DNA from: Arthrobacter woluwensis
GTDB lineage: Bacteria > Actinomycetota > Actinomycetes > Actinomycetales > Micrococcaceae
Length of the DNA stretch: 64,000 nt
Reading direction: 5' to 3'
Assembly (NCBI RefSeq): GCF_030816155.1
Contig: NZ_JAUSXR010000001.1
Span: 806,001 to 870,000 of the forward strand
The notes beneath the pieces are model-generated. The model searched no databases. It saw only the letters and a program-made list of their open reading frames with translations, and had not been told where the DNA came from. The position numbers and the translations under genes were made by a program. Positions 36,526 through 64,000 of the stretch are shown here, one piece after another. The stretch's first letter is position 1. Every line of letters begins with the position of its first letter.

Positions 36526-39500
36526 GTGAGCCCTGACGGAACGAGCCCCGACGGAATCAGCCCCGGCGCCAGAATCCCCAGCGGGAAGCGCCGGCGCTTC
36601 AGGCTCGGCCGGACCGGCCGTCGCGTGCTGGGGGTCACCTCGGTGACCGTCGTCTCGCTCTCCCTTGCCGCTGCGGCGATCGCGTACCCCGGCTTCAAGA
36701 CCGCGGATGTGGACCTCAACGACGGCGGCGTCTGGGTGACCTCGAACGCCCGCAATGCGGTGGGCCGGCTGAACTACGCCTCCCGTGTGCTGGATGGCGC
36801 CGTCACCCCGGCCAGCAACTCCTTCGACATCCTCCAGTCGCGCCAGAACGTCCTGGTGCAGGACGGCCAAGGATCGGCACTGGGCCAGGTCAACCCCGCC
36901 ACGGTGCGCCTGACCGGGGATCAGAAGCTCGCGGCCTCCTCCACCTCCTCGATCGGCGGGGACGTCATCGCGGTCGCGGACCCGTCCAAGGGCAAGGTCT
37001 GGGCCATGAAGGCGGATGCCCTGAGCGGGTACTCGCCGGATTCGGCGGAGCCTTCGGTGGTGGGCAGCGCCGGAATCCGCGCCGCGGTGAGCTCGGACGG
37101 CCACGTCTCCGTGGTGGACCCCGAGAAGGGCGCCGTCACACAGTTCTCCCTCGACGGGTCCGGCACGGTGACCGATCGCTCCAGCAGGGACTGGTCCGAT
37201 CTCAAGGGAGCGGGCGACATCCAGCTGGCGGTGCTCGGGCAGAAGACCGTGGTCCTCGATCCCGCCAAGGGCAAGCTCTTCCTCCCGGACGGCCGCAGCG
37301 TGACCGTCCAGGACGCCCGGAACGCGCGACTGCAGCAGAGCGGTCCGGACGCCGACCAGGTGGCGGTGGCCACCCCGACGGCGCTGATCGTCCAGCCGCT
37401 CGACGGCGGCAAGGCCACGGTGGTGGACGCCGGCGGAACCGGCGTGGCCGCGGCGCCGGTACAGCAAGGCGGCTGTATTTACAGTGCGTGGAGCGGCAGC
37501 AACCGCTATGTGCGCAAGTGCGCCAACCCGGCCGATGACCAGCAGCGCGACGTCCCGCAGGCGAGCGCGTCGCCGTCGTTCGTGTTCCGCGTCAACCGCG
37601 ATCTGGTGGTCCTCAACGACATCAACGCCGGCAACGTCTGGCTGGTGAACCAGAACATGCTCCTGGTCAACAACTGGGACGACGTGATCCCGCCCAAGAA
37701 CACCTCGCAGGACGCGGACAAGGACTCCGCGGACGAGGTGCAGCAGACCACACTGCCGGACCGGAGCAAACCCAACACCCCGCCGGTCGCGAAACCGGAC
37801 AGTTACGGCGTGCGCGCCGGCCGGACCACCATCCTGAGCGTTCTGGACAACGACTCCGACGCCGACGGCGATGTGCTCAGGGTGCGGGCGGAGAACCAGC
37901 CCTCGATCGGCCGGGTCGAGAGCATTTACGGCGGCACCGGGTTCCAGGTCTCCGTGCCGGCGGACAAACACGGCAGCGCCGAGTTCAAATACATGGCGGA
38001 CGACGGCCGGAACGGCCAGGCGGCGGCCCAGGTGACCCTGGACGTCATCCCGCCGGAGGTCAACCGCAAACCTCAGCTCAAACCGGGACGCATCCCCACC
38101 CTGATACTCCAGCAGGGCAAGCAGCTCGTGCAGAACGTCCTGCCGGACTTCATGGACCCGGACGGGGACGACATGTTCCTCACCGGCGCCACCAGCAGCA
38201 ACGCCGGCGACGTCGTGCGCACCCGCCCGGATGGTCAGCTGACCCTGCAGGACGCGGGCTCCGTCCCCGGCAAGCGCACCCTGACGCTGCGGATCTCCGA
38301 CGGCCGGGACACCGCGGAGATCCGCGTGACGGCCGACGTCCGCCCGCCGAGCGCCCTCGCGCCGCTCGCCAACGCGGACTCGGTCATCGTGCCCGCGGGA
38401 CAGAAGATCACCGTGGCGCCGCTGAAGAACGACGTCGACCCGCTCGGGGGTTCCCTCCGGCTCGCCCGCGTGGCGCCGGACGCTCTGTCGACGGCCGTGA
38501 TCGGCGCCGACCAGCAGACGTTCCAGTTCAGCTCCACTCTGGTCGGCACCCACTACGTCACCTACACCGTGACGAACGGCCCGGCCGCCGCCCAGCAGCT
38601 CGTGCGCGTGGACGTGGTGCCGTCGAACGCGGACGGCCCGCCCATCGCGGTCCGTGACGTCGCCCAGCTGCCCAGCGGTGGCAGCACCCTGGTGGACGTC
38701 CTCGGCAATGACTTCGACCCCGCCGGCGGCGTGCTGGTGGTGCAGTCCGTGACGCTGCCGAACGGGGCGCCCGTCAGCGTCTCGGTCCTGGACCACAGCG
38801 TGGTCCGGGTGACGGATCTGCACGCCCAGGGCACCGTGACGCTCAAATACTCCATCTCCAACGGGAAGGCCTCGGCCACCGGGGAGATCGCCGTGGTCGT
38901 GATCCCTTCGCCGTCCAAGCTGCCGGCTCCGCAGGCCAAAGACGATGAGGCCAACGTCCGCGTGGGTGACGTGGTCACGATCCCGGTCCTGGCCAACGAC
39001 GTGGACCCTAACGGCGGCAAGCTCACGCTCGACCCGAAGCTGGCCGAAGTGCCGGACACCGCCGACGGGCGGATCTTCACCTCCGGGAACACCATCCGGT
39101 TCCTCGCGGGTCCGACGCCCAAGACCGTCTACGCGACCTACAAGGTGCTGAACGAGTCCGGCCAGGCCGACTCGGCCCAGCTCACCATCCGCATCAAGGC
39201 CCGCGACGACGAACGCAACGCACGTCCGGAGCCCAAGAACGTCACGGCACGGGTTCTGGCGGGCATGAAGATCAAGATCGCCATCCCTCTGGACGGCATC
39301 GACCCGGACGGCGACTCGGTGGAACTGGTGGGCGTGGACAAGGCCCCCGCCCTGGGCACCGCCGTCGTGGGGGAGGGCGTCATCGAGTACATCGCCGGTG
39401 CCGCCTCCGCGGGGACGGACACGTTCACGTACCGGGTGCGGGACCGTATCGGAGCGGAGAACACCGGCACCGTGATCGTGGGCGTCGCGCCGGCGGCCAC

Positions 39501-42500
39501 GGTCAACCAGAAACCGCTGGCCGTGGATGACTTCGCCGAGGTCAAGCCGGGCCGCCGGATCGCGGTGGACGCCCTGGCGAACGACTCCGATCCCGACGGG
39601 GATCCGATCGCGCTCGTCAAGGACCGCTTCGAGAGCGAGTCCGGCCTCAACGCCTCCGCCACCGAGAACGGCCGGGTCCTGCTGACCGCGCCGGGCACGG
39701 AAGGCACCCACAACATCCGCTACTCGATCGTCGATGACAAGGGCGCCCAGGCGAGCGCCGTCGTCGTGCTCAAGGTCAATCCGCGGGCGGTGCCCAAGGC
39801 GCCCATCGCCAACGACGATCACGTGACCCTCGCCGAAACCCTCGGCAAGACGGCGGTGGACATCCCCGTGCTGAAGAACGACTCGGACCCCGATGGGGTG
39901 ACCGAGGACCTGAAGATCACGTTCCCGGACGGCAACCCGAACGCCTCCCTGGCGCCGGACGGCAAGGTCCGCGTGAAGCTGGCGGAGAACGCGCAGCTCA
40001 TCCCGTATACCGTCACGGACCTGGACGGGCTCACGGCCACCGCGATCATGCACGTGCCGGGCCAGGGCAAGATGCCGCCGGCGCTGAAGAACGGCCAAGT
40101 GGTCGAGGTGACAGCAGGTCAGAGCGTCGACCTCAAGCTGTCCGACTACGTGGCGGTGCGGTCCGGCCGGACGCCTCGCATCACCGTGGCGGAGAAGGTC
40201 AGGGTCCTGGGCGCCTCGGCGGACAAGGTCGTGGGGTCCGACGGCGCCACCCTCCATTACGCGGCGCTGAAGGACTTCGTCGGTCCCGGTTCGGTGACGT
40301 TCGAGGTGACCGACGGTAACGGCCCGGATGACGCCGACGGCCTCAAGTCCACGCTGACGATCCTCACGAAGGTCAAACCGGATCCCAACGCCAATCATCC
40401 GCCGACCTTCCTGGGAAGCCCCCTGGATGTGCCGGACGGGGAGACCGTCACCTTGGATCTCGGACGCCTGGCGAAGGACGTCGACCAGGGGGACCAGGAG
40501 AAGCTGCGCTTCGCCCTGGAGGGCACGCCCTCGGGCGAGCGCTTCGGCATCGCCCTCGAAGGATCCCAGCTCAAGGTGACCGGAAAGGCCGGAACCGCGG
40601 CCGGCGCCCGCCAGGTGGTGGGTGTCACGGTGACCGATGGTCGGTCCGATCCGGTCCGCGCCGAGATCTCGCTGCAGGCCGTCGCTTCCACGCGCCCGCT
40701 TCCCGTGGCCAATGACGATGTGGTGGACAAGGCCGACGCCGGGAAACCGGTCACGGTCAAGGTCACCGAGAATGACGTCAACCCGTTCCCCGGAAGCCCT
40801 CTGAAGGTGGTCGACGCCGAGGTGGAGACCGGCAGCGCGAGCGGCGCGCCCGTCATCAACGGGGAGTCGCTCACGGTGACCCCGTCGGCCGACTACCGGG
40901 GCGTGCTCGTGGTGCGGTACTCCCTGGAGGACAAGACCCAGGATCCGTCGCGCCGCGCGACGGGCCGCGTGAAGATCACCGTGCGTGCCGCGCCGGACGC
41001 GCCGTCCGCGCCGACCGCCACCGATGTGCGGAACAAGACGGCCGTGCTTCACTGGTCGCCGCCGTCGGACAACGGCGCGCCCATCACGAAGTACACGGTG
41101 CGCTCCAGCAGCGGCTTCACCCAGGACTGCACCACCACCACGTGCACGCTGACGGGTCTCACCAACAACGTGCCGTACCGCTTCACCGTGATCGCCACGA
41201 ATGAGGTGGGTGATTCGAAGCCGTCGGCCGAGTCCAACGAGGTGCGCCCGGATGTGAAGCCGAATCAGCCGGACGCGCCGACGGTCAAGGCCGGCAACCA
41301 GGACATGGCGATCTCCTGGGCCCCTGCCAAGACCGAGGGGTCGCCGGTGGAGAGCTACAACCTGGAGATCTCGCCGCCGCCCGCCAACGGCGTCGGCACC
41401 AAGACCGGCGTCACCGGCCTCAAGTACACCTGGACCGGGCTGACCAACGGCACCGAATACCGGGTCCGTGTGCAGGCCGTGAACAAGGCTCCGACCCCGT
41501 CCGACTGGAGTTCGTACTCGGCGTCCGATCACCCGGCCGCGCCGCCGGCACAGCCGGCGGCGCCCACCACGCGGGTGCTCTCTGCCGTGGGCACCACGAA
41601 CCAGGTCGCCGTGGACTGGGTCGCCCCGGATCCGCACGGCGACCCCGTGAAGAACTACTTCGTGACCCGCCACGGCGGTGGCCAGGCTGATCTGACCAAG
41701 ACGGTGTCCGGGAGCGCGCTCAGCACGGAGTTCCAGGTCTCGAATCAGGAGGCCGACTACACCTTCACCGTGCAGGCGGAGAACAAGGCCGGCAAGAGCC
41801 CCGTCTCGGCCCCCAGCGCTCCGCGCCGGGCCGCGGGTAAGCTCGGTGCGCCCCAGAACGTGCGGGCCACGCCCGCGAACACCGGGGGCAACGGGCACCA
41901 GCTCCAGGTCAGCTTCACTCCGCTGGACCAGGCGGGCCGTAACGGCTCGACCGTCTCCGAGGTGAGCTACCAGTACATCGTGACGTCCGGCTCCTACCGG
42001 GACAGCGGGCCCATCCCCGCCGGCGGCGGGACCATCGGCGGCATTCCGAATGGGGCCTCCGCCGCGGTCACCGTCAGGGCGGACTCGACGGTGGCCCAGA
42101 GCTCGGACGCCAGCGAGGCCGCCTCTGCCAAGCCGTACGGTGCCCCCGGCACGCCGAGCGCGAACGGCCAGGACGGGGGAGACAACGACACCTCCGTGGT
42201 GTTCACCTGGAACTCCCCCTCCTCCGGCACGAACGACGTGGCTCAGACGAAGATCAACATCAACGGCGGTGGCTGGGAAGTGGTCGCCGCCAGCGGGAGG
42301 CGCAGCTACAACACGGGCGCGTACAGCAAGACCGTCAGCATCCAGGTGCAGACCGTCAACTCGATCGGTCAGCCGGGGTCGATCGGGTCGGCGAACGCCA
42401 CGTCAGGGCGTAAGCGTCCGACGCAGTGGACGATGGCGATCGACACCACCACTCACACCCGGAGCTGCAGTTATGTCCTGAACGGCATCGACTGGTCTGA

Positions 42501-42750
42501 TGCGACTCACACCTGTGACGGCGCCGGCGGCTTCGACTCCCCGTGGTTCAAGGCCGGTGAGACCTTCATCGCCAAGTGCTACGTGGACTTCGAATACCGC
42601 TACAAGGCCGACGGCGGCGGAACCGGATCCAAGGGTGTGACCTCGTGGTACCGGGTCGAGCCGGGGTCGTCCCGGAACGTCGGCCGGTACGTCCCGTGGG
42701 GCGACACGAACTTCGGACCTCCCGGGCCCCAGGGCGTCCCGCCCTGCTAG
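36526..42750 (+). CDS. Giant Ig-like/fibronectin type III surface protein 1
   Basis: The 2074-aa protein starts at GTG 36526 with AAGGA upstream. Residues 1-33 are basic and Ser/Pro/Gly-rich; 34-53 are a signal or anchor helix ending AAAAIAYPG. Residues about 60-400 resemble a propeller-like domain (repeated [25 protein letters not shown]). About eleven cadherin/Ig-like repeats follow (419-1485; [17 protein letters not shown] motifs), then four to five fibronectin type III repeats (1489-1900) and a Cys-containing tip ending GPPGPQGVPPC. No LPXTG or C-terminal helix is present. It is the fn3 component of a PFNA-like cluster, probably an extracellular fibre or adhesin. Ligand unknown. Confidence 0.9.
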   Translation: MSPDGTSPDGISPGARIPSGKRRRFRLGRTGRRVLGVTSVTVVSLSLAAAAIAYPGFKTADVDLNDGGVWVTSNARNAVGRLNYASRVLDGAVTPASNSFDILQSRQNVLVQDGQGSALGQVNPATVRLTGDQKLAASSTSSIGGDVIAVADPSKGKVWAMKADALSGYSPDSAEPSVVGSAGIRAAVSSDGHVSVVDPEKGAVTQFSLDGSGTVTDRSSRDWSDLKGAGDIQLAVLGQKTVVLDPAKGKLFLPDGRSVTVQDARNARLQQSGPDADQVAVATPTALIVQPLDGGKATVVDAGGTGVAAAPVQQGGCIYSAWSGSNRYVRKCANPADDQQRDVPQASASPSFVFRVNRDLVVLNDINAGNVWLVNQNMLLVNNWDDVIPPKNTSQDADKDSADEVQQTTLPDRSKPNTPPVAKPDSYGVRAGRTTILSVLDNDSDADGDVLRVRAENQPSIGRVESIYGGTGFQVSVPADKHGSAEFKYMADDGRNGQAAAQVTLDVIPPEVNRKPQLKPGRIPTLILQQGKQLVQNVLPDFMDPDGDDMFLTGATSSNAGDVVRTRPDGQLTLQDAGSVPGKRTLTLRISDGRDTAEIRVTADVRPPSALAPLANADSVIVPAGQKITVAPLKNDVDPLGGSLRLARVAPDALSTAVIGADQQTFQFSSTLVGTHYVTYTVTNGPAAAQQLVRVDVVPSNADGPPIAVRDVAQLPSGGSTLVDVLGNDFDPAGGVLVVQSVTLPNGAPVSVSVLDHSVVRVTDLHAQGTVTLKYSISNGKASATGEIAVVVIPSPSKLPAPQAKDDEANVRVGDVVTIPVLANDVDPNGGKLTLDPKLAEVPDTADGRIFTSGNTIRFLAGPTPKTVYATYKVLNESGQADSAQLTIRIKARDDERNARPEPKNVTARVLAGMKIKIAIPLDGIDPDGDSVELVGVDKAPALGTAVVGEGVIEYIAGAASAGTDTFTYRVRDRIGAENTGTVIVGVAPAATVNQKPLAVDDFAEVKPGRRIAVDALANDSDPDGDPIALVKDRFESESGLNASATENGRVLLTAPGTEGTHNIRYSIVDDKGAQASAVVVLKVNPRAVPKAPIANDDHVTLAETLGKTAVDIPVLKNDSDPDGVTEDLKITFPDGNPNASLAPDGKVRVKLAENAQLIPYTVTDLDGLTATAIMHVPGQGKMPPALKNGQVVEVTAGQSVDLKLSDYVAVRSGRTPRITVAEKVRVLGASADKVVGSDGATLHYAALKDFVGPGSVTFEVTDGNGPDDADGLKSTLTILTKVKPDPNANHPPTFLGSPLDVPDGETVTLDLGRLAKDVDQGDQEKLRFALEGTPSGERFGIALEGSQLKVTGKAGTAAGARQVVGVTVTDGRSDPVRAEISLQAVASTRPLPVANDDVVDKADAGKPVTVKVTENDVNPFPGSPLKVVDAEVETGSASGAPVINGESLTVTPSADYRGVLVVRYSLEDKTQDPSRRATGRVKITVRAAPDAPSAPTATDVRNKTAVLHWSPPSDNGAPITKYTVRSSSGFTQDCTTTTCTLTGLTNNVPYRFTVIATNEVGDSKPSAESNEVRPDVKPNQPDAPTVKAGNQDMAISWAPAKTEGSPVESYNLEISPPPANGVGTKTGVTGLKYTWTGLTNGTEYRVRVQAVNKAPTPSDWSSYSASDHPAAPPAQPAAPTTRVLSAVGTTNQVAVDWVAPDPHGDPVKNYFVTRHGGGQADLTKTVSGSALSTEFQVSNQEADYTFTVQAENKAGKSPVSAPSAPRRAAGKLGAPQNVRATPANTGGNGHQLQVSFTPLDQAGRNGSTVSEVSYQYIVTSGSYRDSGPIPAGGGTIGGIPNGASAAVTVRADSTVAQSSDASEAASAKPYGAPGTPSANGQDGGDNDTSVVFTWNSPSSGTNDVAQTKININGGGWEVVAASGRRSYNTGAYSKTVSIQVQTVNSIGQPGSIGSANATSGRKRPTQWTMAIDTTTHTRSCSYVLNGIDWSDATHTCDGAGGFDSPWFKAGETFIAKCYVDFEYRYKADGGGTGSKGVTSWYRVEPGSSRNVGRYVPWGDTNFGPPGPQGVPPC

Positions 42751-42806: not shown

Positions 42807-42813
42807 GCGCCGG

Positions 42814-42944: not shown

Positions 42945-45900
42945 GTGAGCCCAGGCGGCAGAATCCCCAGGATCGGCAGGAAAGGGCGCCGTGTCATCGC
43001 GGTGACCTCCGTGACGGCGGTGTCGCTCTCTCTGGCTGCTGCCGCGATCGCGTACCCCGGCTTCAAGACCGCGGATGTGGACCTCAACGACGGCGGCGTC
43101 TGGGTGACCTCGAACGCCCGCAATGCGGTGGGCCGGCTGAACTATGCCTCCCGCGTGCTTGACGGCGCTGTCACACCTGCGAGCAACAGATTCGACATCC
43201 AGCAGAACGCCGGTCGCATCCTGGTCCAGGACGGCGCCGGGAGCAGCCTGAACACGGTGGACCCCTCAATCGTCCGCCTCGGGCCCGACTACAAGCTGCC
43301 GCCCACCACCTCTGTGTCCCTGGGAGGCCAGACGGTCGCCCTGACCGAGGTATCCAGCGGCAAGGTCTGGGTGACGACCCCGGACGAACTCTCCGGTTTC
43401 AACCCGGAGAACACCCCCGTGACTCTTCAGGGCGCCAATGGGCAGAACACAGTGACCGGCCTGGACGGGACCGTCCACAGTCTCAACCGTTCCAAGGGTG
43501 AGCTGACGGAGCTGCGGCAGGCCACCGAAGGGGGCGGCGTCGATCGTCAGACCCGGACGGTGAACGCGCTCAAGGACACGGGCGACCTTCAGCTCACCAC
43601 GGTGGGGAGCACCGTCGTCGCGTTCGAAGCCACGAGCGGCCGCGTGATCCGTGAAGACGGCTCCAGCATCACCATCCCGGACTCCCGCGACGCGAAACTG
43701 CAGCAGCCCAGCGCCGGGGGAGACGCCGTCATGCTCTCGACCGGCACCGCGCTCTGGAAGGTGCCGCTCTCCGGTGGCGAGGCCACCAAGACCGCGGTGG
43801 ACGGCTCGGGCGATCCGGCGGCGCCGGTCCAGCTGAACGGCTGCACCTACGCGGCGTGGGCGGGCATCAACAAGTACCTGCGCAAATGCGGCAATCCCGC
43901 CGATGACAAGAAGCAGGACATCCCGCAGGCCAGCAAGAGCCCGCAGTACGTGTTCCGCGTCAACCGGGACAACGTGGTCCTCAATGACGTGAACTCGGGC
44001 GTCGTCTGGCTGGTCAACCAGGACATGCTGCTCGTGGACAACTGGGACGAGGTCATCCCGCCCAAGAACCACAACTCGAATCAGGACGACAACTCCTCGG
44101 ACACCACGGCCCGGAACGTCCTCCCGGACCGCACCAAGCCGAACAGGCCGCCCCAGGCCAAGCCGGACACCTTCGGCGTGCGGCCCGGGCAGACGACCAT
44201 CCTCCCGGTGCTGGAGAACGACTCGGACCCCGACGGCGATGTCCTCACCGCCGCCGTCGACGGCAGCGGGCCGAAGACGGGATCCGTCGAGACGATCTAC
44301 GGTGGCACGGCCTTCCAGATCGCGGTGCCCGCGACCGCCACCCCCGGCACCGAGACCTTCCGCTACACCGCCGACGACGGCCGGAGCGGGTCGAACTCCG
44401 CCGACGTGACGCTGCGGGTGGTGGGTCCGAAGGAGAACACGGCGCCGCGGCAGAAACCCGACCGCAGAACCACGCTGGTGGTGGAGAACGGCAAGCAGGT
44501 CAGTCAGAATGTGCTACTGGACTGGATGGACCCGGACGGCGATGAGCTGGTGCTCATGGACGCCAAGGCCGAGAACCCCCAGGACCAGGTGAAGGTGCGC
44601 CGCGACGGCCTGCTCACGTTCCAGGACGCCGGCACGGGTCCGGGCCGCAAGACCGTCACCATCACCGTGTGGGACGGCCGGGAGAGCACGACCGGCCGCG
44701 TCACGGTGGACGTCAGGCCGAACGGCGCGCTGGTGCCCCAGGTCAACGCGGACCACGTGAACGCGGTGGCCGGTCAGCCGACCACCATCTCCCCGCTGAA
44801 GAACGACGTCGATCCCAACGGCGGCAACCTCCGCCTGGCCAGCGTCGACGCCCAGGGCAAGGCTCAGCTGGGCCCTGTCACGGATGCGGGCACCTTCACC
44901 TTCCTGGCGAGGTCGTCCGGCACTTACTACGTCAGCTACGTCGTCAGCAACGGCCCTCAGAGCAATGTGGGACTGATCCGCGTCGACGTGGTGTCCGGCC
45001 GCGAGGAGGGCGCGCCCTCCGCCGTGCACGACGTCGCGCTCCTGCCCACGGGTGGCCAGGCGCTCGTGGCCCCGCTGGACAACGACGACGACCCCGCCGG
45101 GGGAGTCCTGGTGCTGCAGTCGATCACGGTCGACCCCGATTCCGGCGTCTCCGCGACGATCCTCAACCACGAGATCCTGCGGATCACCGACGTCCGGGGC
45201 GCCAACGCCCCGAGCACCATCCGGTACACCATCTCCAACGGCAGCAAATCGGCCACCGGCACCATCTCGGTGATCCCCGTGCCCGCGCCGGCCGTCATTC
45301 AGGCGCCCGAGCCGAAGCCGGACGAGGTCAACGTCCGCGTGAACGATGTGGTGACCATCCCCGTCCTGGCCAATGACACGCACCCGCAGGGCGAGGAGCT
45401 CAGCGTCGATCAGAAGCTGACCGAGATGCCCGAGGCCGCGGACGGCAAGGCCTGGGTCTCCGAGAAGTCGGTGCGCTTCCTGGCCGGCCCCGCCCCGAAG
45501 ACCGTGCGCGTCGTCTACAACGCCGTGGATCCGCAGGGCCAGAAGAGCGCGGCGCCGGTGACCATCCACATCCTGCCCATCGAGGGCCGGGAGAACTCCC
45601 GGCCCCAGGCCAAGAGCGTGACCAGCCGGGTCATCGCGGGCGGCACGGTGCGCATCGCGATCCCCATGGACGCGGTGGACCCCGACGGCGACTCGGTGCA
45701 GCTGGTGGGCGTGGAGAGCGCCCCGAAGAAGGGCACGGTCCAGCTCGGCAGCAACTACATCGACTACACGGCGGCCACTGACGCCTTCGGCACGGACACG
45801 TTCCAGTACCGGATCCAGGACCGGCAGGGCGCCGTCGCGACGGCCCTCGTGACCGTCGGCGTGGCACCGCTGCCCGAAGTCAACCAGAGCCCGTCCGCTG

Positions 45901-49170: not shown

Positions 49171-50136
<966 letters not shown>

Positions 50137-54207: not shown

Positions 54208-55757
54208 GCATCAATGTTGAACGCTGCCCCCAGTGTCAGCAACAGCTCACCCCCGGAGCGGGGTTCTGCCTCGCCTGCGGCACGTCCCTGAGCAACCGGG
54301 CGGCGCTGAGGAACGGCGTGCAGCACCCTCAGCAGCCGGGTGGCGCCCCGCAGGGCGGACCGTGGCAGTCCTCGAGCCCGGGGATCGTCGCCCAGCATCC
54401 TGACCAGCTGCCGGCCACGCAGCCGGTGGTCCGCGCGGGTGCGGCGAAGCGGCTCTTCTCCAAGCTGATCGACCTGGCGGTTCCGGGCATCATCGCGGGC
54501 GTCCTGCTCTCGGTGGGCACGGCCGCACTGCTGAAGAACGGCCTGGCCGGCTCCACCAATCTCGGGCCGAGCCAGGAGGACGTGATTTTCGCCGTCATCA
54601 TGTCCGGCCTCGCGGTGCTGATCTGGCTGGCGTATGTGGTGACCATGTGGATCATGGAGGCCCGGAGCGGCAACTCGCTCGGCAACGCGATCTTCGGGAT
54701 CCGCACCACCGAGCTCGAGGGTTACGCCCCGGGCGCGGGAGCGGTGTTCCTGCGGTGGCTCGTGCTGCTGGCGCCCAATATCCTGTTCGCCTTGGTGGGC
54801 GGCATCATGTCGTTCTTCGCACCGGCCGGCGTGGTGCAGATCGTCGGGGGGATCGGCTCGATCGTGTCCTTCGTCTGGCTGATCGTGGCGGGTGTGTCCA
54901 ACGCCTGGGATCCGAACGAGCGCAAGCAGGGCTGGCATGACAAGGTCGCCCGTACGCTGGTCTTCGACGTCCGCGCCGGACGGAACCCCGTGACCACCGA
55001 GGGCATCGCGGGAACGCACAGCTACCCGACGCTCGACCTCCCGGCGGTCCGCCCCGTGGTGTCCCCGCTGGCCGCGCACGGCCAGGCACAGCAGACCCCT
55101 CAGCAGACGCAGCAGCAGCCGGCACAGCAGCAGGCGGTCACACCCGTCGTCGTTCCTCAGCCTGGTCCGGCCGCCCCGCAGCAGCAGGGCCGCCAGGTCC
55201 CGCCGGTGCCGCAGGCTCCGTTCCCGCTCCAGTTCGGGGAACCGGCTCAGCCCCAGCAGCCCGACCCCCAGCAGTACGGACAGCAGCAGTACGGTCAGCC
55301 CCAGCAGTACGGCCAGCCTGCGCCGTTCGCCCCGCCGCAGCAGCAGTTCGCCCCTCCGGCGGCGCCCGCCGACCACGGGGAGACGATGCTCCGCGCCCAC
55401 CTGCCGTCCGGCGCCGCGGGCCAGCAGGATTCCCTGGTCCTTCTGCTCGACGACGGCGCGCGGGTGCCGCTCGAGGAGGGCGTCCTGATCGGCCGCAACC
55501 CCACCGCCCGGGCCGGGGAGGAGCGTCTGCGTCTGCTGGCACTCGACGACGTGGGCCGCTCCATCTCGAAGACCCATCTCTTGGTGGTCCCGGCCTCGGG
55601 CGGCGCCTGGGTCACGGACCGTCAGTCGACCAACGGCAGCGGTGAGATGCTGGCCGACGGCACCCTGGTCCGCCTCGTCGCGGGGGAGGCACGTTTCGTC
55701 CGTCCCGGGTCAACTGTGAAATTCGGGGACCGGACTTTTAAGCTGAGCACACCATGA
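54204..55757 (+). CDS. Zinc-ribbon, RDD, FHA multidomain membrane protein
   Basis: The 517-aa protein starts at ATG 54204 with AAAGGAG upstream. Residues 8-25 form a zinc ribbon (C8-x2-C11, C22-x2-C25). An RDD-family membrane domain (about 85-260; AKRLFSKLIDLAVPG, NSLGNAIFGIRTTE) has three to four helices. A Gln/Pro-rich linker (about 295-385) follows. T394 sits in DHGETMLRAHLPSG, a candidate phospho-site just before the C-terminal FHA domain (about 405-515; IGRNP, RSISKTHLLV, STNGSGEM). The FHA would read phospho-threonine made by the kinase encoded downstream. Stop overlaps the PP2C start. Confidence 0.88.
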   Translation: MSINVERCPQCQQQLTPGAGFCLACGTSLSNRAALRNGVQHPQQPGGAPQGGPWQSSSPGIVAQHPDQLPATQPVVRAGAAKRLFSKLIDLAVPGIIAGVLLSVGTAALLKNGLAGSTNLGPSQEDVIFAVIMSGLAVLIWLAYVVTMWIMEARSGNSLGNAIFGIRTTELEGYAPGAGAVFLRWLVLLAPNILFALVGGIMSFFAPAGVVQIVGGIGSIVSFVWLIVAGVSNAWDPNERKQGWHDKVARTLVFDVRAGRNPVTTEGIAGTHSYPTLDLPAVRPVVSPLAAHGQAQQTPQQTQQQPAQQQAVTPVVVPQPGPAAPQQQGRQVPPVPQAPFPLQFGEPAQPQQPDPQQYGQQQYGQPQQYGQPAPFAPPQQQFAPPAAPADHGETMLRAHLPSGAAGQQDSLVLLLDDGARVPLEEGVLIGRNPTARAGEERLRLLALDDVGRSISKTHLLVVPASGGAWVTDRQSTNGSGEMLADGTLVRLVAGEARFVRPGSTVKFGDRTFKLSTP

Positions 55758-56644
55758 TCTCTGAAGTCCCCTCTGATTTCGCCTCGGCCCACGACGCCGG
55801 GCCCCTCACCCTCACCGCCGGCTTCGGCACGGACCGGGGTCTCCGCCGCGAGCTGAACGAGGATTCGCTCATCGCGCAAGACCCTGTCTACGCCGTGGCG
55901 GACGGCATGGGCGGGCATGAAGCGGGGGAGATCGCCAGCGGCATCTGCGTCCGCACACTCGCCCAGCGTCTGGCCACTCCGGAAGGCAACCGCGATGTGG
56001 ACGTGACCCGTCTGCAGGAGGCCCTTCAGGAAGCCGATCTGGCGATCCGCCAGCAGGGTTCCGGCCGCGCCGGAACCACGCTGAGCGGCGTCGCGGTGGT
56101 GGAACAGAACCAGAAGCCGTACTGGCTGGTCTTCAACGTCGGGGACGCCCGCACGTACCGGCTCAGCCGGGGCACGTTCGAGCGCGTGACGGTGGACCAT
56201 TCCGAGGTCCAGGAACTGATCGACAACGGATCCATCTCCGCCACGCAGGCCCTGCGGCATCCTCGCCGGCACGTGGTGACCCGCGCGCTCGGCAGCGGCG
56301 ACGGTGGCGCACCGGATTACTGGCTCCTGCCGATCGAGGACGGCGACCGGGTCATGGTGTGTTCGGACGGGCTGACCGGTGAGGTCTCCGACGAGTTCAT
56401 CCGGCGCGTCCTGCAGAGCACCTTCGACCCGCAGGAAGCCGCGGACGCCTTGATCCAGGCCGCGCTCCGCAACGGCGGCCGCGACAATGTCAGCGTGGTG
56501 GTGGTCGATGCCTTCGCCCACGACGGCGAGCTGACCACCTCTCCCCGCATCGACGCGGAGACCGAGGACACTTTGCCGCGGGAGCTCCTGGCGCTCCGCG
56601 AGGAGAGCGCCGCGCCCGCCGCGGCGTCAGGGGAGGAAGAATGA
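55754..56644 (+). CDS. PP2C-type serine/threonine phosphatase
   Basis: The 296-aa enzyme starts at ATG 55754. PP2C motifs are DRGLRRELNEDSLIAQ, YAVADGMGGHEAGEIAS (metal-binding Asp-Gly), RAGTTLSGVAVVEQ, FNVGDARTYRLSRGTF, VMVCSDGLTGEVSDEF, and GGRDNVSVVVVD. It removes phosphate from the kinase and its FHA-bound targets, so phosphatase and kinase act as an antagonistic pair, as with PrpC/PstP systems. It is cytoplasmic: no helix or signal is visible. Start and stop overlap with both neighbours. The acidic C-terminus resembles a flexible tail. Confidence 0.94.
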   Translation: MISEVPSDFASAHDAGPLTLTAGFGTDRGLRRELNEDSLIAQDPVYAVADGMGGHEAGEIASGICVRTLAQRLATPEGNRDVDVTRLQEALQEADLAIRQQGSGRAGTTLSGVAVVEQNQKPYWLVFNVGDARTYRLSRGTFERVTVDHSEVQELIDNGSISATQALRHPRRHVVTRALGSGDGGAPDYWLLPIEDGDRVMVCSDGLTGEVSDEFIRRVLQSTFDPQEAADALIQAALRNGGRDNVSVVVVDAFAHDGELTTSPRIDAETEDTLPRELLALREESAAPAAASGEEE

Positions 56645-58590
56645 ACACCAATCATTACCGGCAGGGGTCGTGGCTCTACGTCCTGCGCAACGGGATCGCG
56701 GTGGTGGTGTCCCCGGACGCCGGCACCGAGAGGATCCTGCAGCTCTGGGAGCTTCTGGGCCGCAACCCGTCCGTGGATCAGCTGCTGAACGAGGTCACCC
56801 GCTCGTTCGGCACCTCCGTCACGGGCCTTCCTGATTTCGCCGTGGTCGACCACCGGGACTCCCTGAGGGTGTTCCTCCGGGGTGATCTCCACGTCCGGAC
56901 CCTCGACGGCAGCGGCACCGAGGTGCACGGGCGCGGGGTGACCACCTGGAACGAGCGCACCCTGCCCTCCAGCGAGACCTTCGAGATCCGTGCCGGTGAG
57001 TCCGCGGACGGGGACGATGATCCGTGGATGCCGCTCGACGCGGGCGTCGTGACGGCGTCCGTGCTGGTGGTCGGCGAGCTTCCGGTCGCCGAAGAGCCGG
57101 GCGACGGCTCCGGCGAGGACGCCGCGTCGGATCTTCCCGCGACGGCTCACGAGGACACGGTGGACGCGCCGCTCTTCGCCGCACCGTCCATGCCGCAGCC
57201 GGCCCCCTCTTGGGACCCCTCCTCGGACGAGGACGACGACGAACCCTCCTTCAGCCTCGACGGCCAGACGGACAGCCTGGCCACCGAGCTTCTGGGGGCG
57301 CGGGCGGCACGCGAGGACTCGGGCGCGGGAGACTCCGTGGACGCCGAGGCCGACCAGGACGCGTCGGATGACGAGCCCGGGGACGAGCCCGGCCAGGGCG
57401 ACGGCGCCCCAGTAGACGGGGCCCCGGCGGATGGGGTCCCAGCGGATGGCGCGGTCGTTGCCGCGGACGAGGAAGCTCAGGCGTCGGGCGATGGGGAATC
57501 GGGCGAGGACCCCGCGGCCGTCTCCGGGCAGCATTCCGGCGACGTTCCGGCGCACCACCATGATGCCGACGCGCCCAACGACCTCACCACCACCTACGAC
57601 CACCTCTGGGATCAGTTCCTGTCGACGCCGGACGCCGCTGAGACGCCGGACGCCGCAGGGACCTCAGGGGGCACAGAAGCGTCAGACGGCATGAAGACTC
57701 CTGACACCCCGGCGGACTCGAACGGAACGGGTACCGGCACCAGCGCGTCCACCCAGGACGGCCACGGCGCAGGCCAGGAGCCGGCGCCGGCCGTGACCCC
57801 GGAGCCTTCCTCCGGACCGGCCGGCCACGACGAGTCCCAGAACACCCTGCTGCCGTCCGCGGAGGCCGAGGAATCCCTCATCGACGAGGTGCCCTGGGCA
57901 CGTTCCGGAGGCTCGGCCCCCGTCGTGGCGCCGGCTCCGGTGTCAGCCCCGGCGCAGTCTCCCGGCGGAGCGTCCACGCCGCCGCCATTGCCGCCCACGC
58001 CGCCGTCGTTCCCTCCGGGCGCGTCGCACGGTGACGATCCGGATCACGACGGGCACACGGTGTTCCGCAGCGAACTTCCCGCGGGCGTTCCTCAGACCGC
58101 CCCGCAGGCGCCCCCGGCGGCACCCGCCAACGGCCCCCGGGTCCTGGCGCGGATGTGCCTCCAGGGTCATGCCAACCCGCCCACCCGGACGCACTGCATG
58201 ATCTGCGAGGAGCAGATCGCCGGTGACGCCGCGAGCGTTCCGCGTCCTCCGCTCGGCCGGCTGCGCCTGCCCAGCGGCGAGACCGTGGTGCTGGACCGCA
58301 ACGTGATCCTGGGCCGCCAGCCGTCCGTCTCCCGGGTCTCCGGCGGGGACATGCCCCACCTCGTGCAGGTGGACAGCCCCAAGAGGGACATCTCCCGTTC
58401 GCACGCAGAGGTCCGGCTGGAAGGCTGGAACGTGGTGCTGTGCGATCTGAACTCGAGCAACGGCACGGTGCTGCTGCGGGACGGACAGTCCCCGCGCCGT
58501 CTCGGCCAGGCGGAGACGGCGCTCGTGCTGAGCGGCGACGTCGCCGAGCTCGGCGACCAGGTCTACATCGTCTTCGAGGATCTCCCGTGA
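56641..58590 (+). CDS. Acidic-linker protein with zinc knuckle and C-terminal FHA domain
   Basis: The 649-aa protein starts at ATG 56641. Residues 1-135 form an uncharacterised folded N-terminal domain (YVLRNGIAVVVSPDAGTERILQLW). About 135-470 is a highly acidic, Ala/Pro/Gly-rich disordered linker. T473 lies in DGHTVFRSELPAG, similar to the motif in the RDD-FHA protein. A zinc knuckle (C506-x3-H510-x8-C519-x2-C522) and an FHA domain follow (about 535-645; ILGRQPSVS, RDISRSHAEVRLEG, NSSNGTVLL). It is probably an adaptor that binds phosphorylated partners. Stop overlaps the kinase start. No enzyme activity is apparent. Confidence 0.85.
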   Translation: MNTNHYRQGSWLYVLRNGIAVVVSPDAGTERILQLWELLGRNPSVDQLLNEVTRSFGTSVTGLPDFAVVDHRDSLRVFLRGDLHVRTLDGSGTEVHGRGVTTWNERTLPSSETFEIRAGESADGDDDPWMPLDAGVVTASVLVVGELPVAEEPGDGSGEDAASDLPATAHEDTVDAPLFAAPSMPQPAPSWDPSSDEDDDEPSFSLDGQTDSLATELLGARAAREDSGAGDSVDAEADQDASDDEPGDEPGQGDGAPVDGAPADGVPADGAVVAADEEAQASGDGESGEDPAAVSGQHSGDVPAHHHDADAPNDLTTTYDHLWDQFLSTPDAAETPDAAGTSGGTEASDGMKTPDTPADSNGTGTGTSASTQDGHGAGQEPAPAVTPEPSSGPAGHDESQNTLLPSAEAEESLIDEVPWARSGGSAPVVAPAPVSAPAQSPGGASTPPPLPPTPPSFPPGASHGDDPDHDGHTVFRSELPAGVPQTAPQAPPAAPANGPRVLARMCLQGHANPPTRTHCMICEEQIAGDAASVPRPPLGRLRLPSGETVVLDRNVILGRQPSVSRVSGGDMPHLVQVDSPKRDISRSHAEVRLEGWNVVLCDLNSSNGTVLLRDGQSPRRLGQAETALVLSGDVAELGDQVYIVFEDLP

Positions 58591-60440
58591 GCCGTAAACG
58601 CCCCGCCGCCCCGCCGCCCCGGATCGACGGGTTCAACTACGTCCGGGTCCTCGGATCCGGTGGCTTCGCCGACGTCTACCTGTACCAGCAGGACAGGCCG
58701 CGCCGGCAGGTGGCCGTCAAGGTCCTCCACGCCGGTCTGAAGACCGAAGGCGCCCGGCGCGCCTTCGAGTCCGAGGCCAACCTGATGGCACAGCTGTCCA
58801 CGCACCCGTACATCGTCACGATCTACGAAGCGGACATCACGCCGGACGGGCATTCCTACCTGGCCATGGAGTACTGCTCCCGGCCGAGCCTGGACCTCCG
58901 CTACCGGAAGGAGCGCTTCCGCCTGCAGGAGGCTCTCGCCATCGGCATCCAGGTGGCCTCGGCCGTGGAGACGGCCCACCGGGCCGGCATCGCCCACCGG
59001 GACATCAAGCCTGCGAACATCCTGGTCACGGACTACAACCGTCCTGCCCTCACCGACTTCGGCATCTCCGGCATCATCGGCGGGGATCCGGAGGATGACG
59101 GCAACGACGGCGCCATGTCCGTGCCGTGGTCGCCGCCGGAGAGCTTCGCGTCCAGCTCCACCGACGGGGTGCTCGTGGACGTGTGGGCTCTCGGCGCCAC
59201 CGTGTACACCCTCCTGGCGGGGCATTCACCGTTCGCCGTCCCCGGCGCCGACAACTCCAACGCGGAGATGATCAACCGGATCAGCAACACGCCCCTGCCG
59301 CGGCTGGGACGTGCCGATGTGCCGGAGGCGCTGCAACTGGCGCTCGCGACGGCCATGGCGAAGAACCCGGCCGCCCGGTACCCCTCGGCGTACGCCTTCG
59401 GCCTGGCGCTGCAACGTATCCAGGCCGAACTGAGCCTGTCCGTCACCGCGTTCGAGGTGATGGGCGATCCCATCCAGGACGACTCCCACTCTGACGAGGA
59501 GGTCGAGGCGACCCGGCTCCGCGGGATCTCCGTGATCGATCCGGACAGCTCCAGTGGCAGGACGGGCAGCACGGGCACCTCCGGGGACGGGACGGCGCCG
59601 AACCGGACCACCCCGAACTACACGGCGCCGAACCAGACGCTGCCCGAAGATCCCACCATGATGCGGTCCACGGGCACCGTCCCCGGCACGTCCGGCGGTC
59701 CGGCGGGGCAGGGCGGCGCCGCCCAGGGAAGTGCTCCCTACGGTTACCACGGGGCCACACCTGCGGCGCCTTCGGGTGGCACGGCGGGTCCGGCGGGCCC
59801 GGCGGCCTGGGAGCGGACCCGCGAGGACGACGCCACGAGCGCCACCTTGCTCCGCGGCATGCAGGGGTCGGGGACCACCGGCCAGCAGCACACCGGCCAG
59901 CTGAACACCGGCGGGCAGGACACCGGCCAGCAGTGGACCGGTTCACCGCAGCCGCAGGACGCAGGCCAGGGCGGCAGCCGCACCAAGCTGTGGATCAGCG
60001 TGGTGGCGGGCGCGCTCCTGCTGGGGCTCGCCGTCGTGCTCGTCGTGGTGCTGAACCAGGGCGGGAACCAGCCGCGCGTGCGGTCGACCGATGGCGCGAG
60101 TCCGTCCAACAGCTCCGGGCTGTCCGGAGCGTCGACGGCCAAGCCGGTGGATCCGCTGGGCGACGGCACGGTGGCCGATGTGCGGAACCTCAGCGGCAGT
60201 CCGGACGGCTCGGGAAAGCTGTTCTTCTCCTGGACGAACCCGGACCCTCGGGAAGGCGACACCTACCAGTGGCGCACCATCTCGGCCACGAAACAGGGGC
60301 CGTGGCAGAAGGCCGGGCAGAACAACGTCCGGGTGAAGCCGGTCGCTGGTCAGCCGACGTGTATCCAGGTTCAGGTGGTCCGCAAGGACGGAACAGCCTC
60401 CACCGGGGATTCCGACTCGGCGAAGGTCTGTGTCCCCTGA
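58587..60440 (+). CDS. Transmembrane serine/threonine protein kinase with extracellular Fn3-like domain
   Basis: The start is GTG 58587, overlapping the previous stop, giving 617 aa. The kinase domain (about 15-285) has the glycine loop LGSGGFADVYLY, ATP lysine K45 (VAVKVLH), catalytic loop HRDIKPANILV with D139, DFG with D157, and APE-like PPESF. A long Thr/Gln/Gly-rich juxtamembrane linker contains three T-x-(L/M)-R sites: T309 (EATRLRG), T357 (DPTMMRS), T420 (SATLLRG). One helix lies near 467-489, then an extracellular segment with a Cys pair resembling a fibronectin type III fold. It equates to Pkb2 of Bifidobacterium PFNA clusters. Confidence 0.92.
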   Translation: MSRKRPAAPPPRIDGFNYVRVLGSGGFADVYLYQQDRPRRQVAVKVLHAGLKTEGARRAFESEANLMAQLSTHPYIVTIYEADITPDGHSYLAMEYCSRPSLDLRYRKERFRLQEALAIGIQVASAVETAHRAGIAHRDIKPANILVTDYNRPALTDFGISGIIGGDPEDDGNDGAMSVPWSPPESFASSSTDGVLVDVWALGATVYTLLAGHSPFAVPGADNSNAEMINRISNTPLPRLGRADVPEALQLALATAMAKNPAARYPSAYAFGLALQRIQAELSLSVTAFEVMGDPIQDDSHSDEEVEATRLRGISVIDPDSSSGRTGSTGTSGDGTAPNRTTPNYTAPNQTLPEDPTMMRSTGTVPGTSGGPAGQGGAAQGSAPYGYHGATPAAPSGGTAGPAGPAAWERTREDDATSATLLRGMQGSGTTGQQHTGQLNTGGQDTGQQWTGSPQPQDAGQGGSRTKLWISVVAGALLLGLAVVLVVVLNQGGNQPRVRSTDGASPSNSSGLSGASTAKPVDPLGDGTVADVRNLSGSPDGSGKLFFSWTNPDPREGDTYQWRTISATKQGPWQKAGQNNVRVKPVAGQPTCIQVQVVRKDGTASTGDSDSAKVCVP

Positions 60441-60505: not shown

Positions 60506-61234
60506 ATGATCGAGCCAGGGCAGGAACCCGTGAGGGAACTCTCCATCGATTACTGCGGGGAGTGGTTCGAACCGGTTCCGGAGGAGGTGTTCGTGATCGG
60601 GCGCGAGGGTGATCTCGCGATCGACGACAACCCCTACCTGCACCGCCGTTTTCTGGAAGTGGCACGCTACGACGGGATCTGGTGGCTCAGCAACGTGGGC
60701 TCCATGATCTCGGCGACCATCGCGGACGGGTCGGGCGGCATGCAGGCCTGGCTCGCGCCCGGAGCACGGATCCCGCTGGTGTTCGGCCTGACCACGGTCG
60801 TCTTCACCGCCGGTCCCACGACCTATGAGTTCTCCGTGCATCAGAACAGCCCTGCCTTCCGGCATCAGGCCAAGGATCCGGAGGCCGACGGCGAGACCAC
60901 GATCGGCCCGGTGGTGTTCACCGACTCCCAGAAGGCCATCATCGTCGCGCTCGCCGAGCCGATGCTGCGCCGTGAGGGCACCGGTTTCAGCGCCATCCCC
61001 AGCTCGGCCGAAGCCGCCCGCCGGCTCGGATGGGCCCTCACGCGCTTCAACCGCAAGCTCGACAACGTGTGCGACAAGCTGGACCGTGTGGGCGTCGCCG
61101 GTCTGCGGGGCGGCGGCGGCAAGCTCGCCATGAACCGCCGCGCCCGCCTCGTGGAGCACGCGGTCACCTCGCACCTGGTGACCGCCGCGGACCTGCCCCT
61201 GCTCGAACAGATGAAAGGTGAGGCCGGCGAGTGA
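60506..61234 (+). CDS. FHA-like plus helical C-terminal domain protein, novel combination
   Basis: The 242-aa protein starts at ATG 60506 with GAGGAG upstream. The first 110 residues resemble an FHA domain (FVIGREGDLAIDDNPYLHRRFLEV, then WWLSNVGSMISATI) although the Ser-x-x-His pair is altered to Leu-His-Arg. The C-terminal half (about 140-240) is helical and winged-helix-like: KAIIVALAEPMLRREGTG, SSAEAARRLGWALTRFNRKLDNVCDKLDRVGV. It may bind phosphorylated partners and possibly DNA. Its stop overlaps the EssC-like start, and a 65-bp gap separates it from the kinase. Not matched to a named family. Confidence 0.75.
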   Translation: MIEPGQEPVRELSIDYCGEWFEPVPEEVFVIGREGDLAIDDNPYLHRRFLEVARYDGIWWLSNVGSMISATIADGSGGMQAWLAPGARIPLVFGLTTVVFTAGPTTYEFSVHQNSPAFRHQAKDPEADGETTIGPVVFTDSQKAIIVALAEPMLRREGTGFSAIPSSAEAARRLGWALTRFNRKLDNVCDKLDRVGVAGLRGGGGKLAMNRRARLVEHAVTSHLVTAADLPLLEQMKGEAGE

Positions 61235-64000
61235 AACTCCGCCTGACACTCCGACGCGGAGACCTCGACAGCAAGGACCTGGCCGTCACCGTCGACGGCA
61301 GCGCGACCGTCTCGGACATCGCCCGGGAACTCTGGCTCGCCGACCCTGACCGGCCCAACCCCGCCGACCCCGGGCGGATGAGTCTGCTGGTCGAGGAGTC
61401 CTATGTGGGCGGCGCCATGCGGGGGCAGCTCCTGGACCCGGACGCCAAGCTCCTCGAGTCGGGGCTGAGGCCCGGCTCCGCCGTCTCGATCGCCCCGGTC
61501 AGCCAGGCCTTCGCGACCCATCAGCAGGCCGGCGGCCCCGCCGTCGCGACGTTGCGGGTGCTGGCCGGGCCCGACGCCGGACGGGAGTTCCCGCTGCCCT
61601 CCGGCACCAGCTACATCGGCCGCGGACGTGACAGCGACATCCGCCTGAGCGACCCGCTGACCTCCAAGCGCCACGCCCGCATCCTGGTGGGCGAGACCGT
61701 GGAAGTGGTGGACACCAACTCCGCCAACGGCCTGCTCATGGACGGGCTGCCCGTCACGCGCGCCGTCCTGGGGTCTTCGGACACGATCACGCTCGGTGAC
61801 ACCACCATCTCCATCATCACGGTGCAGCGGAACCAGGCGGCCGTCGCCACGCAGCCCATGGTGGACTTCAACCGTTCCCCGCGCGTCGTGGCGCGCTTCC
61901 CCGTGCGGAAGAAGGTTCCGCCCAAGGGTCCGCAGCCGCGGGAGAAGGAACCGTTCCCCATCCTGATGATGATGCTGCCGCTGTTCATGGGCGCGGCGCT
62001 GTTCGCCATCACCCAGAACATCACGAGCGTGGTCTTCATGGCGCTCATGCCGCTCTTCGCCATCGGGCACTGGTGGGAGCAGAAGCGGCATTCCGGAAAG
62101 CGCTTCAAGGAACAGCTGCGGCAGTTCCGCGAAGGCATGGACCAGTTCCGCTCGGAGATGACGGAACTGCAGAAGGTGGAGCGCTCGGTCCGCCTGCAGG
62201 AGACGCCCTCCGTCGCGGACACGGTGGACGCGATCTACCGGCTGGGCCCGCTGCTCTGGACGCACCGCACCGAGCACCGCGGCTTCCTCTCCCTGCGCCT
62301 GGGGCTGGGCACGGCGCCGTCGCGCGTCGAGATCGAGGAGCCTCAGGACCGGGACACCGAGGCGGTCTACGCGCGGGAGATCCAGGAGGCGATCGCGTAC
62401 TACTCCACGATCGACGGCGTCCCGCTCGTCTCCCAGCTCCGGCACTCCGGCTCGTTCGGCGTGGCCGGTGAGCGCCATGTGATGGACGACGTCCGCCCGC
62501 GGCCTGGTCGTCCAGCTGGTGGGCCTGCATTCGCCCGCCGAAGTCGTGATCGCCGCGATGACCTCGACGCGGTCGAAGGACCGCTGGGCGTGGCTCAAGT
62601 GGCTGCCGCACGTGGGTTCGGGTCACAGCCCGCTCCCGGGTGATCATCTCGCCGCCGGTCAGGCCGCCGGAACCGCTCTCCTGGAGCGTCTGGAGGCCCT
62701 GGTGGACGAGCGGGCCGCGAGCCGCAAGGAGCCGGTCCCGTCACCGCGCGGCGAGCTCAAGGACGATCTGGTCGATCCGCCGGCCCCCGTGGTCCCGGAG
62801 GTCCTGGTGGTCGTCGAAGACGACGCCCCCGTGGACCGCGGCCGTCTGACCCGTCTGGTGGAGCGCGGCGCCGACACCGGCGTGCACATCATGTGGCTCG
62901 CCGCGGACGTGCAGTCGCTGCCCGCGGCCTGCCGCGACTTCATGGTGGTCGACGGCGGCCAGGGAGCCACCACCGGCCAGGTCCGGCTGGGGCGGCACAG
63001 CTACCCCGTGAGCTGCGAGAGCGTCGATGAGGAGCTGGCGACCCAGCTGGCCCGCATGCTGACGTCCGTCGTCGACGTCGGGCGGCCGCTTGAAGACGAC
63101 TCGAACCTGCCCCGCAGCGTGAGTTTCGTGAACCTCCTCGGCCGCGAGCTGCTGGATTCCGCGAACGCCGTGGGGGAGCGGTGGAAGGAGAACAACTCCA
63201 TCCACAGGACCGCGATCCCCAACCGCAAGGACAACGGAACACTGCGCGCGCTGGTGGGCTCCACCGGTTCCGAGCCGATGTTCCTGGACCTGAAGAACGA
63301 GGGCCCGCACGCCCTGGTCGGCGGCACCACGGGCGCCGGCAAGTCCGAGTTCCTGCAGTCCTGGATCATGGGCATGGCCTCCGCTTACAGCCCTGACCGC
63401 CTCAGTTTCCTGCTGGTGGACTACAAGGGCGGCAGCGCGTTCGCCGACTGTGTCCAGCTGCCTCACACCGTCGGCCTGGTCACCGACCTCTCGCCGCACC
63501 TGGTGCGTCGGGCCCTGACCTCGCTCCGGGCCGAACTGCATTACCGTGAGCATCTGCTGAACCGGAAGAAGGCCAAGGATCTCCTGGCCATGCAGCGCGA
63601 GGCCGACCCGGACGCGCCGCCGTATCTGGTCATCATCGTGGACGAGTTCGCGGCCCTGGCCAATGAGATGCCGGAGTTCGTGGACGGCGTCGTGGACGTC
63701 GCCGCGCGTGGCCGTTCGCTCGGCGTGCACCTGATCCTGGCCACGCAGCAGCCGTCCGGCGTGATCCGCGGCAGCCTGCGTGCCAACACCAACCTCCGCG
63801 TCGCGCTGCGCATGGCGGATGAGGACGACGCCACGGACGTGATCGGCACGCCGCTGGCGGCGTACTTCGACCCCGCGATCCCGGGCCGTGCCGCCGCCAA
63901 GACCGGTCCCGGCCGACTCCAGAGCTTCCAGACCGGCTACGCCGGCGGCTGGACCACGGAACGTCCGCCGCGTCCGCAGATCGACATCGTCGAGATGAAC
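61231..64000 (+). pseudogene. EssC/EccC-like FHA and FtsK/SpoIIIE ATPase (frameshifted; cut by window edge)
   Basis: The frame starts at GTG 61231. Residues 1-95 form a ubiquitin/FHA-like head; an FHA domain follows (about 108-205; SYIGRGRDSDIRLSDPLTSKRHARIL); two helices near 245-290 (FPILMMMLPLFMGAALFAI, VFMALMPLFAIGHWW); then the FtsK/SpoIIIE region. An extra C at 62493-62494 shifts the frame; removing it restores VMDDVARGLVVQLVGLHSP and an open frame to the edge. Walker A GGTTGAGKSEF and Walker B LVIIVDEFAAL lie in the first ATPase domain. Domain order matches type VII ATPase EssC. Sequencing error is the likely cause of the shift. WXG100 substrates would be expected downstream. Confidence 0.85.

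Follow-up and report, generated by a model that had tools for sequence, protein, structure and literature searches.

A PFNA-type operon with an attached FHA-FtsK motor in Arthrobacter woluwensis: a candidate variant type VII secretion machine

The operon and its likeness to PFNA

The subject of this report is an operon of Arthrobacter woluwensis in which the genes for two giant immunoglobulin (Ig)-like/Fn3 proteins, a set of kinase, phosphatase and FHA proteins and an EssC/EccC-like FHA-FtsK ATPase follow one another on one strand. It lies toward the end of the window (the whole 64,000-nucleotide stretch analysed, positions 806001-870000 of a 3508095-base contig), whose end falls inside the operon; the genome was read further downstream. 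For brevity the ATPase is called the motor, and the genes that precede it (giant Ig/Fn3, MoxR, DUF58, TgpA, RDD-FHA, PP2C, FHA, kinase and FHA-helical) the block; G000 denotes the source genome, and G001, G002 and G003 three genomes of the same genus. The operon reads as follows, in window coordinates:

36526..42750, + strand: giant 1 (2074 residues), with a basic N-terminal tail, one hydrophobic segment, an unnamed region of ~350 residues, Big_9 Ig-like repeats and fn3 repeats
42945..49076, + strand: giant 2 (2043 residues), a paralogue of giant 1
49171..50136, + strand: MoxR-type AAA ATPase (PF07726, 1.1e-62), its start placed at the ATG behind AAAGGA
50198..51811, + strand: DUF58 protein (PF01882, 1.3e-8)
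51808..54207, + strand: TgpA-type membrane transglutaminase-fold protein (PF01841, 9.5e-22; PF11992, 1.1e-16)
54204..55757, + strand: zinc ribbon-RDD membrane protein (PF06271, 5.9e-16) with C-terminal FHA-like motifs (FHA by motif only)
55754..56644, + strand: PP2C phosphatase (PF13672, 3.4e-11)
56641..58590, + strand: FHA protein (PF00498, 5.9e-7)
58587..60440, + strand: Ser/Thr kinase (PF00069, 3.3e-40), with a single hydrophobic stretch around residue 466 and a short outer part at the C-terminus
60506..61234, + strand: FHA-helical protein, with a predicted beta-rich N-terminal half and a conserved helical C-terminal half (model pLDDT 73, pTM 0.49)
61231..61536, + strand: putative ubiquitin-like domain at the N-terminus of the motor (profile searches and AlphaFold model)
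61231..62643, + strand: N-terminal piece of the motor (ubiquitin-like, FHA, membrane segments), whose frame departs before the end of the ORF
62519..65671, past the window end at 64000 (L003:2520-5672), + strand: C-terminal piece of the motor, with three P-loop domains

The ORFs and their Pfam domains are those of the kinase-phosphatase-FHA operon headed by two giant Ig/Fn3 proteins that an earlier note, made from the letters of this DNA, had described. Its remark that nearly every junction overlaps by 4 bp holds for six of the ten; the other four are gaps of 61-194 bp (giant 1/giant 2, 194; giant 2/MoxR, 94; MoxR/DUF58, 61; kinase/FHA-helical, 65). The kinase motifs, the phosphatase motifs and all three P-loops of the ATPase are present. 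G001 has an identical content and order of genes from an upstream cyclase-type gene through ligA downstream, and G002 and G003 agree over the part that was fetched (TgpA to ligA); the arrangement is thus more than chance.

Giants 1 and 2 contain nine and ten Big_9 stretches, respectively, with three fn3 stretches each, and are 51% identical overall. Identity falls from 90% over alignment columns 1-100 to 38% over the next 100, as though conversion had held the N-termini alike. In related genomes there is either one giant or a pair.

By gene content the operon is a PFNA-type cluster, as the earlier note had it. The bifidobacterial cluster consists of pkb2, fn3, aaa-atp, duf58 and tgm, with prpC and fha added in some species (passages of PMC8430577). 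The corresponding core genes (kinase, Fn3 giant, MoxR, DUF58 and transglutaminase-fold protein) stand together on one strand in Arthrobacter, along with PP2C and FHA genes. The order differs from that of Bifidobacterium: giants, MoxR, DUF58 and TgpA follow in sequence, while the kinase gene lies downstream. The Arthrobacter operon also differs in having two giants, additional RDD-FHA and FHA-helical genes, and an attached motor.

The motor and its N-terminal domain

What kind of ATPase is attached? Its C-terminal piece scores best against the EssC model among type VII models (443.8 bits), with EccC at 275 and the FtsK model at 57.8; the curated EssC cut-off of 778.4 bits is not reached, nor is it exceeded in any of 99 genomes compared. 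(The other comparison sets were 34 loci around the motor, fetched and read with the source locus counted among them, 80 named ATPase loci with 10-kb flanks, and 396 genomes of the phylum.) Pfam places FtsK_SpoIIIE domains in the protein, and its FHA domain has the phosphothreonine-binding motif: of 21 loci, 20 show GR..S.RH and all show S[AST][NH]G. The class that the earlier note assigned stands; its single frame does not. Two ORFs share the protein, 61231-62643 corresponding to positions 5-220 of the EssC profile and 62519-65671 to positions 234-1294. The frame is open over 1482 residues in G001, G002 and G003, and the C-terminal piece is 99.3% identical to that of G001.

(A technical note: in the same genome, outside the window, groEL (L004:10300-12148) and typA (L005:10300-13400) are each likewise split between two frames, which makes an assembly or sequencing error likelier than a pseudogene as the source of the break in the motor.)

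In a tree of motors the source protein falls into a single clade of 32 rows (support 100), separate from EccC and from the clade of the Bombiscardovia motor, which belongs to a locus with the gene order of the T7SSd type of type VII secretion system. The tree has no T7SSb or T7SSe rows, none having been identified among the best 60 of 651 plasmid records. Most of the 32 rows have the block adjoining; G089, G408 and L185 have no block core there, and G042 and G096 have the block and motors that fall outside the clade. A full-length relative of the motor (1114117-1118566; 69.6% identity over 100% of the query) was seen in NZ_AP024648.1, a 1.35-Mb Arthrobacter record filed as a plasmid.

The first ~96 residues of the motor stand before the FHA domain. 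In Pfam the source copy of this N-terminal domain matches no family, and 30 such domains gave single weak matches only (UBX, YukD, Ub-Mut7C, TmoB and unrelated families). A profile of the 30 (A1) finds ubiquitin-like chains best in the PDB (a redesigned ubiquitin at 2.6e-6, ISG15 at 1.5e-4), and a second profile (A4) of 15 domains does so again, at 7.9e-7. A4 matches A1 with 99.2% probability, an agreement that is not independent since five rows are common to both. In the AlphaFold model (pLDDT 79, pTM 0.70) two strands, a helix, two more strands, a short helix and a last strand follow one another, as they do in ubiquitin. The profile matches 36 of the 99 genomes, 35 of them in a frame of this kind of ATPase (the 36th match, with E 6.8e-4, falls on the YukD domain in a protein of EccD type), and 27 of the 396 genomes of the phylum. 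An HMM finds the domain in 69 of the 80 named ATPases; two of the remaining 11 start inside the protein and nine show a similar-looking stretch before the FHA region. A ubiquitin-like domain fused to the motor is thus well supported, by profiles and model, for this branch.

Does the fusion extend to T7SSd? That system was defined by Garrett, Higginson and Palmer (2024) as TsdA, TsdC, TsdD, TsdH and TsdI, with no ubiquitin-like orthologue reported either at the T7SSd loci or in the rest of the genomes that carry them (passages of PMC11217815). At locus L194 of Bombiscardovia coagulans the genes follow in T7SSd order, with a WXG gene first, then the kinase, a short protein, a protein of 1758 residues and the ATPase. 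Taken singly, the N-terminal domain of this ATPase matches A1 with a probability of only 4%; five pooled relatives reach 93.4% (E 2.4e-7; 0.3% for a WXG profile as control). Against the PDB the pooled five find a ubiquitin-like chain at E 0.046, short of confident. It is likely, though not proven, that the T7SSd motors of Bifidobacteriaceae also carry the fused domain. The ubiquitin-like domain of EccD touches the first nucleotide-binding domain of EccC (PMC11217815, in part), so that a fusion within one motor would fix that contact. The consulted passages of a 2006 survey of prokaryotic ubiquitin-like proteins (PMC1779556) describe an actinobacterial fusion of YukD with a membrane domain of 12 helices and make no mention of a fusion to an ATPase. 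No literature was found that reports the fused domain or joins PFNA to type VII secretion; subscription papers lay mostly outside the search, as did the supplements of the T7SSd paper.

Linkage of block, motor and WXG proteins

Block genes adjoin the motor in 23 of the 34 loci. A missing association of the FtsK-type gene with the cluster in relatives, which by the earlier note would have spoken against its reading, was not what these loci show. A WXG-type gene follows within 4 kb in 17 of the 23. (The six loci without one comprise four of the source genus and two of one other genus.) MoxR, DUF58 or TgpA lies inside the 10-kb flank at 28 of the 80 named ATPase loci, among others in Arthrobacter, Sinomonas, Cellulosimicrobium, Microbacterium, Nocardioides, Dactylosporangium and Actinospica. 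Outside the class, the joint cluster recurs in G302 and, as nearby halves on opposite strands, in G229.

The FHA-helical protein served as a marker of the block; it is present in 41 of the 99 genomes. A type VII motor match (this ATPase type, or YukD/EccD) occurs in 39 of these 41 against 17 of the 58 without the marker or, counted by genus, in 27 of 29 against 13 of 32. (These counts treat related genomes as independent: they show association, not exact probabilities.) The association persists where this ATPase type is absent, the YukD marker being found in 14 of 16 such genomes with the FHA-helical marker and 7 of 48 without. Eight loci were fetched from the 14: five of them (G021, G031, G034, G047, G059) have EccC and EccD no more than ~10 kb away from the block. 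Four of the five place these genes between block and ligA, and the remaining one is interrupted by the end of its contig. The other three, G007, G020 and G036, have ligA next to the block and the YukD match elsewhere. Pfam named no further Ecc parts on eight ORFs of G034; EccB, EccE and mycosin were not sought.

A profile of 13 motor-following WXG proteins, none of them from the source genus, matches 28 of the 99 genomes. Among the 23 whose motor match is strong (E below 1e-20) it is found in 21, and among the other 76 in 7, or 3 of 76 when four weak matches are left out; by genus, with strong matches only, the figures are 13 of 15 and 3 of 46. The source genome has eight matches, none at the operon locus: three at about 3.116-3.121 Mb, where the frames have 113-213 residues, and five more in one frame of 207 residues and four of 482-598. 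In a Pfam search of five of the WXG loci one long protein passes the cut-off for a PGAP1-like alpha/beta domain and there is one weak alpha/beta-hydrolase match. Long proteins with a WXG N-terminus lie at L166:4387-6341, L168:4136-6555 and L005:8123-10268, two of them with alpha/beta-hydrolase-type matches, and after or beside each is a small gene that could encode a partner or immunity protein. By their sequences these WXG-family proteins look like type VII cargo.

The only strong PF06013 match of the source genome, at 513750-514001 (L004:13720-14010), was considered as a specific partner of the motor and rejected: PF06013 is present in 97 of the 99 genomes. This WXG100 gene sits beside a histidine kinase gene. 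Since 41 of the 43 genomes with neither a YukD nor a motor match carry a PF06013 protein, members of this family may also serve a purpose unconnected with the known motors.

The earlier note had proposed a search for type VII genes behind the motor, whose absence would tell against its reading. None was noticed between the motor and ligA at this one locus, so that this condition holds locally only (no search of the genome was aimed at EccB, EccE, EssA, EssB or EsaA). The surroundings of the operon are as follows:

35256-36395: adenylate/guanylate-cyclase-type gene, directly 5' of giant 1; present in G001 too
66403-67017, past the window end (L003:6404-7018): SUFU-domain ORF between motor and ligA

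Biotin/lipoate-ligase-type and PH-domain genes are further 5' neighbours. BLAST finds nothing like the SUFU-domain ORF in the remaining 33 loci; ligA is the next gene after it and neighbours the motor in 13 of the 34 loci.

A variant secretion machine and its competitors

On balance we judge it somewhat more likely than not that the operon encodes a variant T7SSd-like type VII secretion machine of Actinomycetota together with a regulatory and envelope module. With T7SSd it shares an FHA-bearing FtsK-type ATPase, a membrane Ser/Thr kinase, a very large Ig-like protein and a WXG100-type protein (here in trans), all in Actinomycetota. Component by component, the motor has the N-terminal FHA and FtsK-type NTPase domains of TsdC (in a frame split here and open in G001-G003), and the kinase has the membrane helix of TsdD; no TsdA-like WXG100 gene was seen at the source locus, and no candidate for the short single-helix TsdH was noticed in the operon, for which no dedicated search was made. 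The large Ig-like TsdI, a core part of T7SSd (PMC11217815, in part), has an N-terminal Sec signal and a C-terminal membrane helix. The giants are Ig-like with an N-terminal hydrophobic segment and, by hydropathy, no C-terminal helix; they are at most candidate homologues of TsdI. The operon further departs from T7SSd in its MoxR, DUF58, TgpA, RDD-FHA, PP2C, FHA and FHA-helical genes, in a motor of a clade apart from that of Bombiscardovia, and in the fused ubiquitin-like domain, compared with T7SSd as reported.

Two further type VII systems were compared. T7SSa (EccB, EccC, EccD, EccE) shares the EccC-type NTPase domains and a ubiquitin-like domain, there fused to EccD; the source motor has an FHA domain and EccC forms a separate clade. 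YukD (PF08817) has no match in G000-G003. T7SSb (EssC, EsaA, EsaB and others) has an FHA-bearing ATPase, and EssC is the best-scoring model; the motor stays far below its cut-off, and the ubiquitin-like EsaB/YukD of T7SSb is a separate protein.

How might such a machine work? The membrane kinase would read the state of the cell envelope and phosphorylate threonines on a partner; the motor and the FHA proteins would dock on these phosphothreonines through their FHA domains, PP2C would reset them, and docking and reset would switch assembly or activity of the channel. The one-segment membrane kinase, the PP2C, the FHA proteins and the FHA domain of the motor together make a phospho-switch likely, and one has been suggested for TsdC (PMC11217815, in part). 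MoxR, DUF58 and TgpA could form an assembly or maturation module. The giants would leave by Sec and, anchored N-terminally, form an outer part spanning the wall. The cargo would be the WXG family with its long fused members, the giants excluded. That the FHA-helical protein might bind DNA as a regulator is a guess from its modest structure model; 2 of 19 members have a weak Fis-type helix-turn-helix match, and its helical domain has no solved relative below E 0.4.

Several observations weigh against this proposal. The motor frame is broken in this assembly, and the WXG HMM has no match in the stretch behind it. Eleven of the 34 motor loci have no block nearby and 10 genomes have a motor match and no FHA-helical marker, so that the motor can do without the block; conversely the marker occurs without a motor match in G062 and G078, and in G089 block and motor are far apart. 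The Bifidobacteriaceae T7SSd loci L194, G690 and G523 lack MoxR, DUF58 and TgpA in the stretch read. The related genomes that enter the linkage counts are not independent of one another.

The most serious competitor, though we think it unlikely, is that PFNA is a surface-sensing or adhesion operon by itself, and the type VII motor a frequent, functionally unrelated neighbour. The literature reads PFNA this way, proposing a host-signal operon with a kinase and an FN3 protein that binds TNF-alpha (passages of PMC8430577). The blocks without an adjoining motor in G007, G020 and G036, and the motors without a block, fit as well. A merely casual neighbour should not be predicted by the block marker as it is, with and without this ATPase type, nor should two different motor types adjoin the same block.

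The earlier note's own proposal, that the motor exports or assembles the giants by a type VII-like route, is quite improbable. Giants and motor do share an operon, and T7SSd does count a large Ig-like protein among its core parts. Yet the giant examined starts with a basic tail and a signal-like or anchor-like hydrophobic segment in 17 of 18 loci, a contig end truncating the last one; hydropathy shows no such segment at the C-terminus, so that Sec export is the simplest reading. Giants occur also where the motor lies elsewhere (G007, G020), and the genome offers the WXG-family proteins as the likelier cargo. Export of the giants by type VII is thus not supported by their sequences, and the earlier choice of cargo was probably wrong; its type VII reading of the operon, by contrast, appears right in direction, to judge from the block-motor linkage, the WXG genes behind and beyond the motor, and EccC and EccD beside the block.

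Equally doubtful is a degenerating system with a pseudogene for a motor. The broken frame and the missing WXG neighbour would suit it; the like breaks in groEL and typA, the near identity of the C-terminal piece to that of G001, the eight WXG-family matches that remain and the absence of a neighbouring WXG gene equally from genomes of the genus with an open motor frame do not. (Genome completeness, 95 as compared with 99, 93 and 99 in the genus, does not decide the question.) Finally, a DNA-moving or envelope-growth role for the FtsK-type protein, in a PknB-like growth module beside ligA, has the FtsK_SpoIIIE domains and the recurrent ligA to recommend it and is hardly credible in the face of the EssC and EccC scores and of two type VII marks, the ubiquitin-like head and the WXG neighbours.

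If the operon does encode a secretion machine, a wider and more tentative proposal can be made: that PFNA, across Actinomycetota, provides type VII secretion with its assembly and envelope module, works under phospho-control and can serve two motor types, and that the motors of this branch, T7SSd included, carry the "missing" ubiquitin-like part at their own N-termini. Two clusters that are handled apart in the papers searched would then be joined, and PFNA would gain a testable job; the cytokine-binding FN3 giants of bifidobacteria would be outer parts of a secretion machine or descended from one; and the seeming lack of a ubiquitin-like component in T7SSd would be explained. The exchange of motors beside one regulatory block would amount to a natural experiment on interchangeable parts, and soil bacteria would offer themselves for testing the phospho-control of a type VII motor.

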